64,000 nt of DNA from Spirosoma aerolatum (GTDB taxonomy: Bacteria; Bacteroidota; Bacteroidia; Cytophagales; Spirosomataceae), in contig NZ_CP020104.1 in the NCBI RefSeq assembly GCF_002056795.1, forward strand, positions 5,279,501-5,343,500. Direction: 5' to 3'. The position numbers and the translations under genes were made by a program. The notes below the pieces were generated by a model. The model searched no databases. It had not been told where the DNA came from and saw only the letters and a list, made by a program, of their open reading frames with translations. The first letter of the stretch is position 1. Each line of letters begins with the position of its first letter. This document shows positions 19,667 to 60,940 of the stretch, one piece after another.

Positions 19667-20683
19667 TTACTCGTTCGGAGCATACGCATGGACGGCTTCC
19701 AGCAGGCGTTTCTGAATGGAACGACGCAGCCGGTCGGGCTCAAGCACGACCATCGCTTCGCCAAAGCCCAGAATTTCCTTTTCCAGCTCGAAATTGTGCT
19801 GCACATATAGCCGAATGATAATTCCCTCGCCGGTTCGTTCCAGTACTTCCTGTGAGTGATGAAGCGGCTTGGTTTCTACATATGGGGCATGCCGATGCGT
19901 AACAAACAACTTCACCCTGATTGGCCGCATATTATCGCTGACCGACACCCCGATCACATCCCGGTAATACAGTTCAGGGTCAATATGACTCACGACATAA
20001 TCGACCTCTGGGGCGGGTGTTATGGCATGCATACGGTCGAGCGCGAGGTTCATGATTTGTCCTTTTCCATCCCGTACACCCACCGCAAACCAGCGGTTTT
20101 TGAACTCTTTCAGCCACCATACATGGAAGATAAACGTTTGAGGCAGCCGTGCCGAAAACGACTGATAGTCAAGACAAACCACTTGCTTCTGAATGACGGC
20201 CTGATACAGTACATCCAGAAAATGAAGCCCTTTCAGCCCCTCGTTTTTTTCGAAATCAATAACCGGAACAGACTTCTGGGCTGTCGAATACACGTAATCT
20301 TCCAGTTTCTGCACCACGTCGTTCAGGGCCGTAAAGTGCGAAAACCCTTTAAACTGTTTCAGCACCTCGACGGCCTCATTCATCCGAAGCAAATCGCCAT
20401 CCGACAACGGAATATTGGTAATGCTGTATGCTGGATCGTCGTAGGTGTAGTATTTTTTATCGACGACCACAATGGGGGCAAAATAGCCTAGCTTATCGCT
20501 CCGCATCAGCTGCAAATCGGCCTGAATGGTTCGTCGGCTGATGCCTTTGTCGATGCCTTCGTACTCGTAGAGCGCTTCCGATACTTTTTCGATCAGGGCT
20601 TCCAGCGTCCATTTCCGCTGCCGATTGCGCAGGCAGGCATCCAGTGTTTTGTACCGAATCAGGGCATTCCGATTAACAGGCAT
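19667..20683 (-). CDS. WYL-domain transcriptional regulator
   Basis: A 338-aa regulator starting at ATG 20683 (MPVNRNALIRYKTLDACL), the normal start of this family. An upstream in-frame extension runs into the promoter region and is not credible. Residues about 8-75 form a winged helix-turn-helix (RKWTLEALIEKVSEALYEYE and ISRRTIQADLQLMRSDKLG). The WYL domain follows at about 150-245, with WLKEFKNRWFAVGVRDG in the place of the classic WYL motif, then a WCX-like C-terminal part. WYL proteins sense nucleic-acid-like or nucleotide ligands. It is divergent from the tRNA-like RNA/slipin/rtcB unit, and a palindrome in the shared promoter is its likely binding site. Confidence 0.9.
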   Translation of the reverse strand: MPVNRNALIRYKTLDACLRNRQRKWTLEALIEKVSEALYEYEGIDKGISRRTIQADLQLMRSDKLGYFAPIVVVDKKYYTYDDPAYSITNIPLSDGDLLRMNEAVEVLKQFKGFSHFTALNDVVQKLEDYVYSTAQKSVPVIDFEKNEGLKGLHFLDVLYQAVIQKQVVCLDYQSFSARLPQTFIFHVWWLKEFKNRWFAVGVRDGKGQIMNLALDRMHAITPAPEVDYVVSHIDPELYYRDVIGVSVSDNMRPIRVKLFVTHRHAPYVETKPLHHSQEVLERTGEGIIIRLYVQHNFELEKEILGFGEAMVVLEPDRLRRSIQKRLLEAVHAYAPNE

Positions 20684-20736: not shown

Positions 20737-20763
20737 CAACTGCGCAAAAAGACTGCGCAGTTG
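20737..20763. promoter_or_regulatory. 10-bp inverted-repeat operator between WYL gene and the RNA/slipin/rtcB unit
   Basis: CAACTGCGCA (20737-20746) and TGCGCAGTTG (20754-20763) are perfect reverse complements with a 7-bp spacer. The site lies 54 bp before the WYL start and just upstream of a plus-strand -7-like box at 20769-20776. On the minus strand a TCTTTTTG box (complement of 20745-20752, one mismatch to TAnnTTTG) lies inside it. A dimeric regulator bound here could control both directions. That it is the WYL protein is inferred from position. Confidence 0.6.
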
Positions 20764-20768
20764 CCCCG

Positions 20769-20776
20769 AATCTTTG
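20769..20776 (+). promoter_or_regulatory. Probable -7 promoter box for the structured RNA / slipin / rtcB transcript
   Basis: AATCTTTG followed by CA differs from the Bacteroidota TAnnTTTG consensus only in the first base. It would start transcription near 20783, placing the whole structured region 20832-21296 in the transcript. The adjacent palindrome covers the position where the upstream promoter element would be. Confidence 0.4.
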
Positions 20777-20886
20777 CAACGATGGAAACATCAATACCCA
20801 AACCAGATGCGGGTTTCTGTATAGCCCCATAGTATCGCAGCCACTGGCTGATACCGATATGCTGTTGGTTATGGATGCGTTCTGTC

Positions 20887-20952
20887 TCTATGTGTTGGAG
20901 GTTCGAGTCCTCCCTTTGTTTTGGCAAAGTAGCTTAAGGGTAGAGCAATAGG
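20887..20952 (+). ncRNA. Circularly permuted tRNA-like RNA module (YrlA-like)
   Basis: All tRNA elbow parts occur in permuted order. TCTAT (20887-20891) is the anticodon-like 3' strand. A 5-nt variable loop follows, then the T-arm GGAGG-TTCGAGT-CCTCC (20897-20913) and the acceptor-like 3' strand CTTTGTT. After two bases comes the 5' strand GGCAAAG (20923-20929). T8-A9 lead into the D-stem GCTT/GAGC with loop AAGGGTA (20936-20942), base 26 A, and ATAGG (20948-20952), which pairs back to TCTAT. U8-A14, G18G19 and the full T-loop consensus are kept, so the tertiary elbow should form. The stem opens where a tRNA has its anticodon arm. This matches the published layout of bacterial Y RNA (YrlA) tRNA-like domains. 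A hairpin at 20832-20854 precedes it. Function in RNA repair is inferred from the neighbours. Confidence 0.75.
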
Positions 20953-20956
20953 AAAT

Positions 20957-20994
20957 GCAGGTTCGAATCCTGCTATCAACTCTAAAGGTTGATC
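20957..20994 (+). ncRNA. Second T-arm plus acceptor-like stem, partial permuted tRNA-like unit
   Basis: Five bases after the first module is another perfect T-arm, GCAGG-TTCGAAT-CCTGC (20957-20973). It is followed by TATCAAC (20974-20980), which pairs over six of seven positions with GTTGATC (20988-20994) around a 7-nt loop. That is again the permuted order T-arm then acceptor stem. A canonical D-arm does not follow; 21004-21032 can instead fold as a hairpin (GGAAGAC with GTCTCC). GATCC/GGATC (20991-20995 with 21034-21038) offers a competing pairing. It may be a diverged second Y-like RNA or a switching element. Confidence 0.5.
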
Positions 20995-21039
20995 CATTGG
21001 TTGGGAAGACGGCCACTTCTAAAAAGGTCTCCAGGATCC

Positions 21040-21296
21040 ATAATCAGCAAGGAGCTATCGGGTTGCTCGATCGGTTCGCCGGGTGAGTGACAGTTTAGCC
21101 AGGGCCAGCAGGCCGATACCGCGTTTGTCGGTGTACAGTGCTTTGCCGGATGCAAACGGGTCGATTTGTTAACGGATACCGTGTTACGGCACTCTCCTGA
21201 AAACACCTCGCCCCTACTCGTTCGTCGAACCTCTGTACCAACGCACTCGCCAACCGGCTTCCGCACAGGCTAAATCGATAGCTCCAGACTGATTAT
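21040..21296 (+). ncRNA. Large structured RNA region closed by an 18-bp helix
   Basis: ATAATCAG-CAA-GGAGCTATCG at 21040-21060 pairs with CGATAGCTCC-AGA-CTGATTAT at 21276-21296: 10 bp, a symmetric 3x3 internal loop, then 8 bp. Nested inside are GCCGG (21078-21082) with CCGGC (21254-21258), GTGAGTG (21083-21089) with CACTCGC (21244-21250), GTACAG (21133-21138) with CTGTAC (21233-21238), and AGTGC (21137-21141) with GCACT (21189-21193). Local hairpins include a UUCG-capped one at 21070-21084. The last overlaps the second helix and two helices share bases, so alternative folds exist. The region ends 33 bp before the slipin start. It could be a stand-alone RNA or a long leader. Confidence 0.55.
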
Positions 21297-21329
21297 TCAT
21301 TCATAACCATTTACAAACACCAAAAAACA

Positions 21330-22433
21330 ATGAAAACTGTACGCATCCAGGCCTGGCAAATCGGGCTTGTGTTCAAACAGGGCGGGTATCAAAAACTGAT
21401 TTCGGAAGGCACGTACTGGGCCTGGCCGAACGAGACCGTCTATGTCTACAACCGGGGAGAGCGGTTACAGAATCCCCCCTGCGATCTGGACGTGCTCTTA
21501 CAGTATCCCGAGGTAGCGGCCTCACTTGATGTGATCGACGTGAACGATCATGAAATTGCCCTGCAATACGAAAAAGGGCTTTTTCAATCTATCCTGACCA
21601 AAGGCCGCTGGGCGTACTGGAAAGGTATCAAGCAGTACGACTACCTCAAAGCCGATTTAAGTCAACTCGATATTCCGACAACGATCGACCTCAAATCGCT
21701 GATGCCAGCGCCTTTGTCGGCCTATGTCCGTACATTCACGGTAGAAGCACACGAGCAAGGCGTTTTGTTTATAGACTGGACATTCGAACGAGTGCTCAAG
21801 CCGGGGGTTTATTACTGGTGGAAAAATAACACGCCCCTTCATGTACTGAAAGTGGATACGCGCCAGCAGCAAATGGAAGTGTCGGGTCAGGAGATTCTGA
21901 CCAAAGACAAAGCCTCTCTACGGCTGAGTTTTTTCGTTCAGTTTCAGGTGCAGGATGTTATAAAAGCGCTGGTCGGCAACAAGGACTACGACAAGCAGTT
22001 GTATGTGGCTATTCAGTTGGCTCTGCGTGAGTACATTGGTGGCCTGACACTCGACGAACTGCTGGATAAAAAAGGGGAACTGGCACCGTTTGTGCTCGCA
22101 GCCACGGCAGGCAAAGCCGCTGATCTGGGTGTTGAGTTGCGAAACGGTGGGGTACGTGATATTATCCTGCCGGGCGATATGCGCGACATCATGAACCAAG
22201 TCCTGATGGCCGAAAAGAAAGCCCAGGCCAACAGCATCATGCGCCGGGAAGAAACCGCTTCAACGCGCAGTCTGTTGAACACGGCCAAGTTGATGGAAGA
22301 CAACGAAATGCTCTGGAAATTGAAAGAGATGGAGTACGTCGAGAAAATTGCGGATAAGATCAGTTCGATTTCCGTATCGAACGACAGCTCGATGGTCGAT
22401 CAATTGAAACAACTTTTCGTACGGCCAACGTAA
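21330..22433 (+). CDS. Slipin / SPFH (band 7) family protein
   Basis: A 367-aa protein of the stomatin/slipin class. The N-terminal half (KTVRIQAWQIGLVFKQGGYQ, then GTYWAWPNETVYVYNRGE) and the central SPFH domain (about 125-280) contain VRTFTVEAHEQGVLFIDWTF and GVYYWWKNNTPLHVLKVDTR. The helical C-terminus (LMAEKKAQANSIMRREETAS) is typical. No clear transmembrane segment is seen, so membrane contact would be peripheral. It lies between the structured RNA region and rtcB, 64 bp before the latter, and is probably in the same transcript. Slipins form ring-like scaffolds. A role in positioning RtcB or the RNA is an inference. Confidence 0.85.
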   Translation: MKTVRIQAWQIGLVFKQGGYQKLISEGTYWAWPNETVYVYNRGERLQNPPCDLDVLLQYPEVAASLDVIDVNDHEIALQYEKGLFQSILTKGRWAYWKGIKQYDYLKADLSQLDIPTTIDLKSLMPAPLSAYVRTFTVEAHEQGVLFIDWTFERVLKPGVYYWWKNNTPLHVLKVDTRQQQMEVSGQEILTKDKASLRLSFFVQFQVQDVIKALVGNKDYDKQLYVAIQLALREYIGGLTLDELLDKKGELAPFVLAATAGKAADLGVELRNGGVRDIILPGDMRDIMNQVLMAEKKAQANSIMRREETASTRSLLNTAKLMEDNEMLWKLKEMEYVEKIADKISSISVSNDSSMVDQLKQLFVRPT

Positions 22434-22497: not shown

Positions 22498-24039
22498 ATG
22501 GAAACACCAATATCAATCGATAATATTTTAACACTTGGGCCCATTCCCGAATCGTTGCATACCCCCTTTCTGCGGGTAGCCAATGGGCTGGTTCAGCGGG
22601 CCGGGTACCCAACCGAAAAGGTGATGGGATTACTGGCGCAAATGCTTCAGAATCCTAAAAAATTCGCTTACTCGAAAAACAAGGTGACGAATCTGGCAAA
22701 GGCCATCTATGACCTCAACAAACAGGGCATTGCCATTCCGTTGAGCGAAGCCGGGGCTGCGTATCTGCCTCCCGAACCCGCACCATTCACGCTGAATACG
22801 AGCGGAAACCAGACCGAGCAAACCTTCGACCTGCGTTCCGGCCCGTTACCCTATGCCATATTTGGTCGGGAGAATATTGAAGAAGGTGCCCTGAAACAAA
22901 TGGAAACGGCTGCCAGTCTGCCGATTTCGGTAGCGGGTGCGCTCATGCCCGATGCGCACCAGGGGTATGGCCTGCCCATTGGTGGTGTGCTGGCAACGGA
23001 TGCCAATACCGTAATTCCGTTTGCTGTTGGGGTCGATATTGCCTGCCGAATGTGCCTGTCCATCTTTGATTTACCGCCCGCTTTTTTGAAACGGGAACCG
23101 CATCTATTGAAAAAATCGCTGGTGGAACAAACTAAGTTTGGCATCGGTGGCGAAACGCGGGCGAAGTTCGATGAGTCGGTGATGGATCTGCCCGAATGGA
23201 CAGCGACCAAAGTAATCCGCGACCTGAAAGACAAAGCCTACCGACAGCTCGGAAGCTCAGGAACGGGTAACCACTTCGTCGAATGGGGAATCGTAGAGGT
23301 TTACGAATCAGCCGACCCGTCGAAAACGACTGGCCTGAATCTACCTTCGGGTGAGTACCTGGCGCTGTTGTCGCACTCGGGTTCGCGTGGGTTTGGGGGT
23401 AACGTGGCAAACTATTACTCCAAACTCGCCATGCTGAAAACGAAACTACCCAAACAGGCAGCGCATCTGGCCTGGCTCGACCTGAATACCGAAGAAGGGC
23501 AGGAATATTGGATTGCGATGAACCTTGCGGGAGAATATGCGTCGGCCAACCACCACGAGATTCATAACAAGCTGGCCAAAGCCCTCGGCGAAAAACCGCT
23601 GGTGATGATCGAAAACCACCACAACTTTGCCTGGAAAGAGCAAATGCCCGATGGCCGCGAGGTGATTGTGCACCGAAAGGGGGCCACCCCCGCCGGACCG
23701 GATGTACTGGGAATCATACCTGGCTCGATGACCCAACCCGGTTTTGTGGTACGGGGGCGCGGTGATACCGACTCACTCAACTCGGCCTCGCACGGAGCCG
23801 GACGGTTGATGTCGCGGACGCAGGCGTTCAACAACATCACCAATTCGCAGTTGAAGAAAGCCCTGGAAGCGGCCGATGTGCAGTTGATCGGTGGCGACCT
23901 CGACGAAGCCCCAATGGTCTACAAAAACATCGAAACCGTCATCGACGCCCAGCGCGACCTGGTCTCTGTTCTGGCAAAGTTCACCCCGAAAATCGTCCGC
24001 ATGGCCGACGCCAACCGTAAAGAAGGCCGCGAAGATTGA
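22498..24039 (+). CDS. rtcB: RtcB family RNA-splicing/repair ligase
   Basis: A 513-aa GTP- and Mn-dependent ligase that joins a 2',3'-cyclic or 3' phosphate end to a 5'-OH end. Hallmarks are DAHQGYGLPIGG, GVDIACRM with metal ligands Asp180 and Cys183, GTGNHFVEWG, HSGSRGFGG, NHHNFAWKEQ and SHGAGRLMSR. In the last, His432 corresponds to the histidine that becomes guanylylated. The first about 115 residues are an extra N-terminal region compared with the about 400-aa E. coli enzyme. No RtcA cyclase, archease or Ro60 gene is nearby. A terminator follows at 24053. The neighbours suggest regulated repair of cleaved tRNA-like RNA. Confidence 0.93.
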   Translation: METPISIDNILTLGPIPESLHTPFLRVANGLVQRAGYPTEKVMGLLAQMLQNPKKFAYSKNKVTNLAKAIYDLNKQGIAIPLSEAGAAYLPPEPAPFTLNTSGNQTEQTFDLRSGPLPYAIFGRENIEEGALKQMETAASLPISVAGALMPDAHQGYGLPIGGVLATDANTVIPFAVGVDIACRMCLSIFDLPPAFLKREPHLLKKSLVEQTKFGIGGETRAKFDESVMDLPEWTATKVIRDLKDKAYRQLGSSGTGNHFVEWGIVEVYESADPSKTTGLNLPSGEYLALLSHSGSRGFGGNVANYYSKLAMLKTKLPKQAAHLAWLDLNTEEGQEYWIAMNLAGEYASANHHEIHNKLAKALGEKPLVMIENHHNFAWKEQMPDGREVIVHRKGATPAGPDVLGIIPGSMTQPGFVVRGRGDTDSLNSASHGAGRLMSRTQAFNNITNSQLKKALEAADVQLIGGDLDEAPMVYKNIETVIDAQRDLVSVLAKFTPKIVRMADANRKEGRED

Positions 24040-60433: not shown

Positions 60434-60465
60434 GTCTGACGCCCCTTCTAAAAAAATCCCCATTC

Positions 60466-60940
60466 AACCCAGGCCTATAAGCCGGGTTCTGTCCTTCCGA
60501 ATTGGAATGGCTTATCATTTATCTGGGATGCCAGTCACCCGACACCTCGTTCGACCTACCCGCATCGGTTTGGCCTTTCGGCTTCTGGCGACGAGCAGCC
60601 GCACATCCGATGCTTATTTGGTCTTTCAGCCCCTAAGGGTTACCGTGCCCCGTTGGTCACCCAATGGGCGGTAGGCTCTTACCCCACCGGTTCGCCCTTA
60701 CCCAGGTTAATAATTGAATGATTGAGTTTTGAATGATTGAATAAAAACAACTGGCGCAAGCCTATTCAATCATTCAAAACCCAATCATTCAATTATTAAC
60801 CTGGGCGGTATGTTTTCTGTTGCCCTGTCTGTCGAATGGCCGTTCCCAGCCATCCGCCTTCCCGTTAAGAAGTAGGGTGCTCTATGCTGCCCGGACTTTC
60901 CTCATCTGCTCTTGCAGACGCGATAAGCCAGCCTGGGTTG
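60466..60940 (-). ncRNA. rnpB: RNase P RNA (type A) with enlarged P12
   Basis: On the minus strand the RNA starts near 60939 with AACCCAGGCTGGC, whose P1 partner GCCTGGGTT ends near 60466. Conserved regions are clear: GAGGAAAGTCCGGGC, ACAGAAAACATACCGCC, GGTAAGGGCGAACCGGTG, GTAAGAGCCTACCGCC, GATGCGGGTAGGTC and GACAGAACCCGGCTTATAG. Length is about 474 nt, roughly 100 more than usual, because P12 contains a 42-bp palindromic insertion at 60702-60804. It is the catalytic RNA that matures tRNA 5' ends. Confidence 0.96.
60702..60804. repeat. 42-bp-arm palindrome inserted in P12 of RNase P RNA
   Basis: Arms 60702-60743 and 60763-60804 are reverse complements over 42 bp with a single G-U, around a 19-nt loop containing CTGGCGCAAGCC. 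The arms consist of repeated TTGAATGATTGA units. It replaces the short tip of P12, so the RNA keeps its core. A decayed copy of the right half is at 1068-1115, supporting a dispersed or mobile element. Confidence 0.85.

Follow-up and report, generated by a model that had tools for sequence, protein, structure and literature searches.

The window analyzed here (the whole stretch of DNA, 64,000 nucleotides) contains the gene for a WYL regulator on the minus strand, a 646-base gap holding a 66-base module at 20887–20952, a slipin gene and then the gene for the RNA ligase RtcB (Table 1). The start codon of the WYL gene at 20683 is our choice; the open frame reaches back to an ATG at 20830. The slipin shares 98% identity with the one in a Spirosoma sp. 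record, and an RtcB ligase gene lies close to a divergent regulator gene, as in bacterial RNA-repair operons. The 66-base module, M1, is one module within a larger leader RNA that the original prediction had not seen.

Table 1. Genes and RNA features of the slipin–rtcB locus, with the basis of each assignment
Feature	Position	Strand	Basis or detail
WYL/WCX-domain transcription regulator, divergent	19667–20683	−	Pfam PF13280 and PF25583
Palindromic operator-like site	20737–20763	.	Core CTGCGCA-N6-CTGCGCA at 20740–20759; leader conservation
Possible Bacteroidota-type −7 promoter element, AATCTTTG	20769–20776	+	Conserved position in leader alignment
5′ stem A	20811–20827	+	20811–20813 with 20825–20827; 34 sequences
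5′ stem B	20833–20859	+	20833–20837 with 20855–20859; 99.4% of cells paired, double changes in 3/5 pairs
M1, permuted tRNA core	20887–20952	+	Sequence reading, folding, covariation, covariance model, parser
M1 anticodon-stem strands	20887–20891, 20948–20952	+	TCTAT facing ATAGG; ends open
M1 variable loop, 5 nt	20892–20896	+	Sequence reading
M1 T-arm	20897–20913	+	Stem 20897–20901/20909–20913 around TTCGAGT
M1 sealed acceptor-like hairpin	20914–20929	+	Six pairs and 4-base loop in fold
M1 linker T-A	20930–20931	+	Sequence reading
M1 D-arm	20932–20946	+	Stem 20932–20935/20943–20946; A14, A15 and GGG in loop
M1 base A26	20947	+	Sequence reading
Tertiary pair, position 48 (U20896) with position 15 (A20937)	20896–20937	+	15–48 covariation
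Second T-arm (T2)	20957–20973	+	About 60–70 nt past the first T-arm (T1) in many relatives
Hairpin after T2	20975–20993	+	20975–20980/20988–20993; alignment of 22 leaders, two-sided changes by eye
H-type pseudoknot, A-rich loop	21005–21029	+	Stem 1 21005–21008/21016–21019; stem 2 21011–21014/21026–21029
Rest of leader up to slipin, partly conserved	21030–21329	+	Alignment of 22 nearest leaders
Slipin-like SPFH/Band 7 protein	21330–22433	+	Pfam PF01145, E 8.6e-27
RtcB RNA ligase	22498–24039	+	Pfam PF01139, E 5.8e-83

Rotated tRNA core and its conservation

The original prediction placed a circularly permuted tRNA elbow at 20887–20952, with a 5-nt variable loop, a T-stem around TTCGAGT, the linker T-A, a 4-bp D-stem and base 26, and all of these parts and spacings are present where it put them. 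Its seven acceptor pairs have to be reduced to six, since seven would leave a loop of two bases and the fold has one of four. The ends do open at the anticodon stem, as judged by the folded closing strands and by double changes in all five closing pairs among relatives, the outermost pair being weak (unpaired in 17 of 45 sequences). The expectation that tRNA finders would miss M1 was also borne out, with no ARAGORN gene called in the window. Rfam at its cut-offs gives no match at the place of M1 or the leader. Elsewhere in the window, a class A RNase P RNA lies at 60462–60939 on the minus strand (263.1 bits).

Folded without constraints, the exact 66 bases form the rotated core at −15.3 kcal/mol, with one of its five closing pairs missing. 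This energy is no better than that of shuffled sequences (z −0.28), and the minimum-energy folds of longer stretches (20880–20960, 20887–20985 and 20860–21000) rearrange parts of M1; folding energy is thus no proof of the structure, and we did not use it as evidence. A pattern parser finds one full module on the two strands of the 64 kb, and 60 dinucleotide shuffles (3.84 Mb, one strand) produced no module reaching the parser score of M1 and two lower-scoring ones (score of 14.5 or more). A covariance model trained on homologues plus the window itself scores M1 at 68.6 bits and the next place in the 7.96-Mb genome at 32.1 bits. Chance hairpins are ruled out by these shuffles, by the gap between the two model scores and by the covariation described below.

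Relatives were collected as loci of slipin homologues, 43 from named genomes and 30 from 150 genomes of the family; ten of the 73 duplicate another, which leaves 63 with the window's copy counted. In 62 of the 63, a T-arm pattern precedes slipin by 250 to 800 bases (with four of five pairs in L061), the single locus without it being the distant L043. The parser, which demands T-, acceptor- and D-stems, returned 87 hits, of which 14 were dropped for lying more than 800 nt upstream or scoring under 14.5, and 73 were kept: 48 M1, 24 M2 (the modules with a local anticodon arm) and one neither. Because modules were selected by their stems, and M2 was defined by its anticodon arm, the percentages of kept pairs given here are biased upward.

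Among the 45 distinct M1 sequences of the 48, the window's included, 96.7% of 855 pair cells are paired (19 pairs, 15–48 among them), compared with 43–59% when partners are slid. Compensatory changes in relatives, the test that the original prediction had named for itself, are found, with double changes in 17 of the 19 pairs. All 24 M2 sequences give 98.3% of 480 cells paired over 20 pairs, 17 of them with double changes, and a slid-partner control of 31–45%. Shuffle controls of the M2 alignment matched or exceeded the observed values for double-change pairs and pair types in 3 of 500 cases, a count that is not a probability because the sequences are related. The alignments demonstrate a covarying secondary structure.

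Bases 15 and 48 of a tRNA form the Levitt pair. The parser ignores this pair, apart from half a point given to A or G in position 15, and in the 48 M1 it is G-C in 38, A-U in six, U-A in one, A-C in two and A-A in one; G-C or A-U thus accounts for 44, and three M1 do not fit. The 24 M2 divide into 12 G-C and 12 A-U. At 19 loci outside the model, some of which are close kin (L107 and L108), the pair fits in 23 of 24 slipin-linked modules and in all ten Ro60- or YrlA-linked ones. The counts demonstrate that the tertiary pair is maintained together with the stems.

The same pair tells rotated from ordinary part order. If the locus had been left over from ordinary, linearly ordered tRNA genes, the D-arm of M1 (D1) would belong to T2, and at relaxed thresholds the Rfam tRNA model does span the D-arm and T2 (20930–20973; 24.7 bits, cut-off 29); it was this match that uncovered T2. 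Base 48 of T2 also fits position 15 of D1 in eight of 11 leaders from among those nearest the window; these leaders have an incomplete second module, and an alternative D1–T2 docking is possible in them. At the 16 loci with both modules, however, base 48 of T2 fits the following D-arm (D2) in all 16 and the preceding D1 in only five, which supports the rotated order and is not predicted by the ordinary one, so that a linear D1–T2 tRNA is rejected there. Plain decay would not be expected to leave compensatory changes either, and the M1 closing stem has double changes in five out of five pairs; we regard a linear remnant as very unlikely.

Processing of a circularly permuted tRNA gene into a working tRNA would agree with the rotated order of parts in M2, and such genes are described with this order in the accessible part of the literature source (PMC3978253). 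In contrast to these, the acceptor is sealed here and no mature tRNA is expected: a 4-base loop closes the stem, with no space for a discriminator base, CCA or processing spacer. The relatives are no independent test of an open acceptor, as the parser itself demands a closed hairpin. Moreover, M1 has no anticodon loop, and U33 is present in 17 and missing in four of the 21 seven-base M2 loops. Together these points make a working tRNA highly improbable.

Leader architecture and gene neighborhood

The operator-like palindrome upstream of M1 occurs in all 22 nearest leaders, 11 of them with the exact core and 11 with one or two changed bases, and its exact pattern is found once in the genome of the window. 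The WYL protein may bind it. The putative −7 element AATCTTTG resembles the Bacteroidota consensus. Between this element and M1 lie two 5′ stems common to 34 leaders. These are 34 of 39 stretches (L005, L009, L023, L062 and L068 were left out), the 39 comprising the window's own and one each from 38 of a further 59 loci; the remaining 21, with the Flavobacterium loci among them, gave no match to the 5′ pattern. Stem A consists of three pairs, of which two have changed on both sides and the third is invariant; a fourth pair (column 13–33) was discarded, being unpaired in 29 of the 34. Some shuffles reached two of the five measures for this alignment, with 12 of 500 matching or exceeding the number of double-change pairs and 84 of 500 that of pair types; here too the relatedness of the sequences keeps these counts from being probabilities.

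Downstream, the stem-1 pattern of the pseudoknot is found in 51 of 60 loci examined, and a stem 2 of at least four pairs is possible in all 49 distinct ones, compared with 46.5% of mismatched locus pairs. Further hairpins are probable, from the alignment, in the remainder of the leader. From the pseudoknot to slipin, the plus strand showed no terminator-like site, and co-transcription of the leader with slipin and rtcB is therefore likely.

The second module of the window consists of T2 and the hairpin that follows it, which is perhaps an M2 remnant with no recognizable D-arm or anticodon arm. An outer pairing of an upstream GTTGGT with the ATCAAC that follows T2 was considered and set aside, since the local hairpin ATCAAC/GTTGAT seems to account for the changes at more loci (by eye). 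M1 is absent from eight of the 22 nearest leaders, all of which keep T2, and by this distribution is dispensable; one locus (L012) has M1 and lacks T2. Records with Chitinophagaceae, Flavobacterium and other names in their titles contain intact M2, in the order T-arm, acceptor, D-arm and anticodon arm. Of the 73 modules, 24 have an anticodon arm, and in 21 of these M2 the loop has seven bases, with 12 different central triplets (GTT in five). The number of rotated modules in the leaders of other Bacteroidota ranges from one to three, with three present in L017, L107 and L108.

Of the 63 fetched slipin stretches, 45 contain an RtcB match, 43 of these downstream on the same strand, and 33 have a divergent WYL match upstream of slipin; no RtcB match lay near 18 and no WYL match near 29 of the 63 loci, some stretches being short. 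In 32 of the 43 named loci, scanned with ARAGORN, at least one tRNA gene lies upstream on the slipin strand in 23 and at least five in nine. Ordinary tRNA arrays of up to 18 genes occur in this position (among L015–L042, for example L042:2058–3736 and L040:656–2428). A record titled Rickettsiales (L026), whose bin may be misnamed, encodes a slipin 55% identical to the window's behind a leader with the same rotated modules. A single scan of viral contigs for slipin gave one stretch and no confirmed relative.

Slipin served as bait in this collection, and a search of 395 Bacteroidota genomes with the M1 model is a fairer test of linkage. The model fires in all 395 at E 0.01, tandem tRNA gene junctions fitting it, and for this reason only fetched loci were judged, by their neighbors within about 1.5 kb and by eye. 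Besides the window's, 29 loci were fetched: 16 adjoin slipin, three of which (L090, L096 and L098) repeat modules already in the set, five adjoin TROVE (Ro60), one is a tandem YrlA, six are junctions of tRNA genes and the last is unclear. We regard the linkage to slipin, and in many loci to RtcB, as demonstrated. The tandem YrlA (L112:1319–2076) comprises five YrlA matches, two of them above the Rfam cut-off, near a weak RtcB match.

Relation to YrlA and Ro60

YrlA has been described as circularly permuted relative to tRNA, in the accessible part of the source (PMC11472068), so that a rotated elbow is no novelty in kind. YrlA (Rfam RF02553; structure 6CU1) and M1 have in common the rotated T-arm, the sealed acceptor-like hairpin, the D-arm, the open anticodon stem and a nearby rtcB. 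M1 could accordingly be an ordinary YrlA, a free small Y RNA tethering Ro60 to PNPase, whose sequence has merely diverged. The comparison with YrlA-type Rfam families proposed in the original prediction gave a divided answer: at relaxed thresholds YrlA is the best match, over 20868–20982, but its 40.9 bits fall below the gathering cut-off of 69, and the loci of 15 relatives contain no YrlA at the cut-off. The neighboring rtcB agrees with an ordinary YrlA, as in the Salmonella operon described in the available part of the report (PMC7790460), and the Ro60-linked modules of other Bacteroidota fit the same covariance model.

Ro60 itself is mostly unfound. A TROVE match is missing from the window's own 7.96-Mb genome and from 47 of 53 slipin genomes, absence from draft genomes being uncertain. 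In the six genomes that have TROVE, the gene lies directly upstream of the slipin-linked leader in three (G027, G085 and G102; loci L064, L065 and L072), with an apparent tRNA-Asp gene between, and elsewhere in the other three. One of the latter is L001, the window's nearest relative, and the two have identical M1. The pseudoknot pattern is missing in L064, L065 and L072. Ro60 may thus be a partner in some lineages. The sequence GNCGAAN0-1G, the Ro60-binding motif of the basal stem, is missing in the window and occurs within 150 nt upstream of T1 in six of 48 modules. We also considered whether stem B had taken up the Ro60-stem sequence, and rejected this, as the Rfam YrlA alignment begins at 20868, beyond stem B.

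On the YrlA features examined here, M1 is not a standard YrlA, and ordinary YrlA function is in our judgment unlikely. A further difference is its setting: the conserved leader around it is longer and also has 5′ stems and a pseudoknot, such leaders hold as many as three modules, and the neighboring gene is slipin. We read these RNAs as a slipin-linked, mostly Ro60-less branch of Y RNAs. Among the matches listed from the open-access literature, we recognized no description of a Y RNA linked to slipin or of rotated modules that stand in tandem and carry anticodon arms, nor of the frequent lack of Ro60 or the leader architecture.

Possible roles of the leader RNA

Selection keeps the tRNA-like part of these RNAs, its tertiary pair included, in genomes mostly without detectable Ro60, and its role therefore probably does not hinge on Ro60 alone. 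In YrlA the tRNA-like part undergoes modification by DusA and TruB and also binds PNPase, according to the accessible part of the report (PMC8394870), which together with the conserved elbow favors a decoy for an elbow-recognizing protein. Based on these observations, we propose that M1 is the tRNA-decoy module of a structured leader, tying tRNA processing or damage to the slipin–rtcB operon or to slipin assembly, and we give this reading a probability of about one half.

In such a mechanism, the leader transcript would probably begin at a WYL-controlled promoter and extend to the slipin–rtcB RNA-repair genes. M1 would fold as the L-shaped core of a tRNA with its chain rotated, entering and leaving through the anticodon stem. 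The hairpin loop that seals the acceptor stem would preclude tRNA-like charging or trimming; with its acceptor end closed, the mimic should be unchargeable. The mimic would be bound by a protein that recognizes the elbow, be it an exonuclease like PNPase, a nuclease that attacks tRNA or a modification enzyme, and the bound mimic would tie tRNA processing or damage to the operon or to slipin assembly. Where an anticodon arm is present, the module could also act as cleavable bait.

Alternatively, the leader may be a cis-acting sensor in which a nuclease cuts the mimic, the cut shifts slipin–rtcB expression, and RtcB reseals the RNA and resets the system. The mimic precedes an RNA ligase gene, the plus strand has no terminator-like site on the stretch between pseudoknot and slipin, ordinary tRNA genes lie upstream in many loci, and the 21 second modules of relatives with seven-base anticodon loops show the 12 triplets noted above. 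M1 of the window, however, has no recognizable anticodon arm, so a role in response to anticodon nucleases cannot rest on the window RNA, and fragments of Salmonella YrlA went undetected during anticodon nuclease action in the portion of the report available (PMC7790460). We consider such a sensor unlikely.

A wider version, which we likewise hold to be unlikely, would make the leader RNAs of Bacteroidota the bait that a tRNA-damage response operon provides for itself. One to three unchargeable rotated mimics, many with lineage-specific anticodon loops, would head the slipin–rtcB transcript; anticodon nucleases would cut this bait as well as tRNAs, the cut leader would alter expression, and the resulting RtcB would reseal bait and tRNAs in a feedback loop. 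The anticodon module of Spirosoma seems decayed, and the lone D-arm could dock either T-arm as a two-state switch, with slipin replacing Ro60 as the protein partner.

Two further known systems resemble this locus. The Salmonella rsr-yrlBA-rtcBA operon likewise combines a divergent regulator, a tRNA-mimic RNA and the RtcB ligase, as far as the available parts of two reports describe it (PMC7790460, PMC9879122), and differs in that here a WYL-family regulator stands in place of the sigma-54 activator RtcR and slipin in place of Rsr (same sources). In Anabaena, a single regulator of translation stress, TrcR, controls a regulon that includes a tRNA array, RtcB and a slipin; there the genes lie apart, and no tRNA-mimic RNA is described in the accessible part of the report (PMC10272220). 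With variable anticodon loops ahead of an RNA-ligase gene, and ordinary tRNA genes frequently close by, the idea of a decoy or sensor for tRNA damage can be tested directly in environmental bacteria.

Finally, tRNA finders can overlook RNAs built from rotated modules or convert them to false tRNA calls. In L037 (2406–2480) and L017 (3068–3163), ARAGORN calls of tRNA-Asn and tRNA-Phe, respectively, overlap rotated modules and are probably miscalls, although both loci count among the 23 with an upstream tRNA; annotation pipelines may split rotated-module RNAs into false tRNAs in this way.
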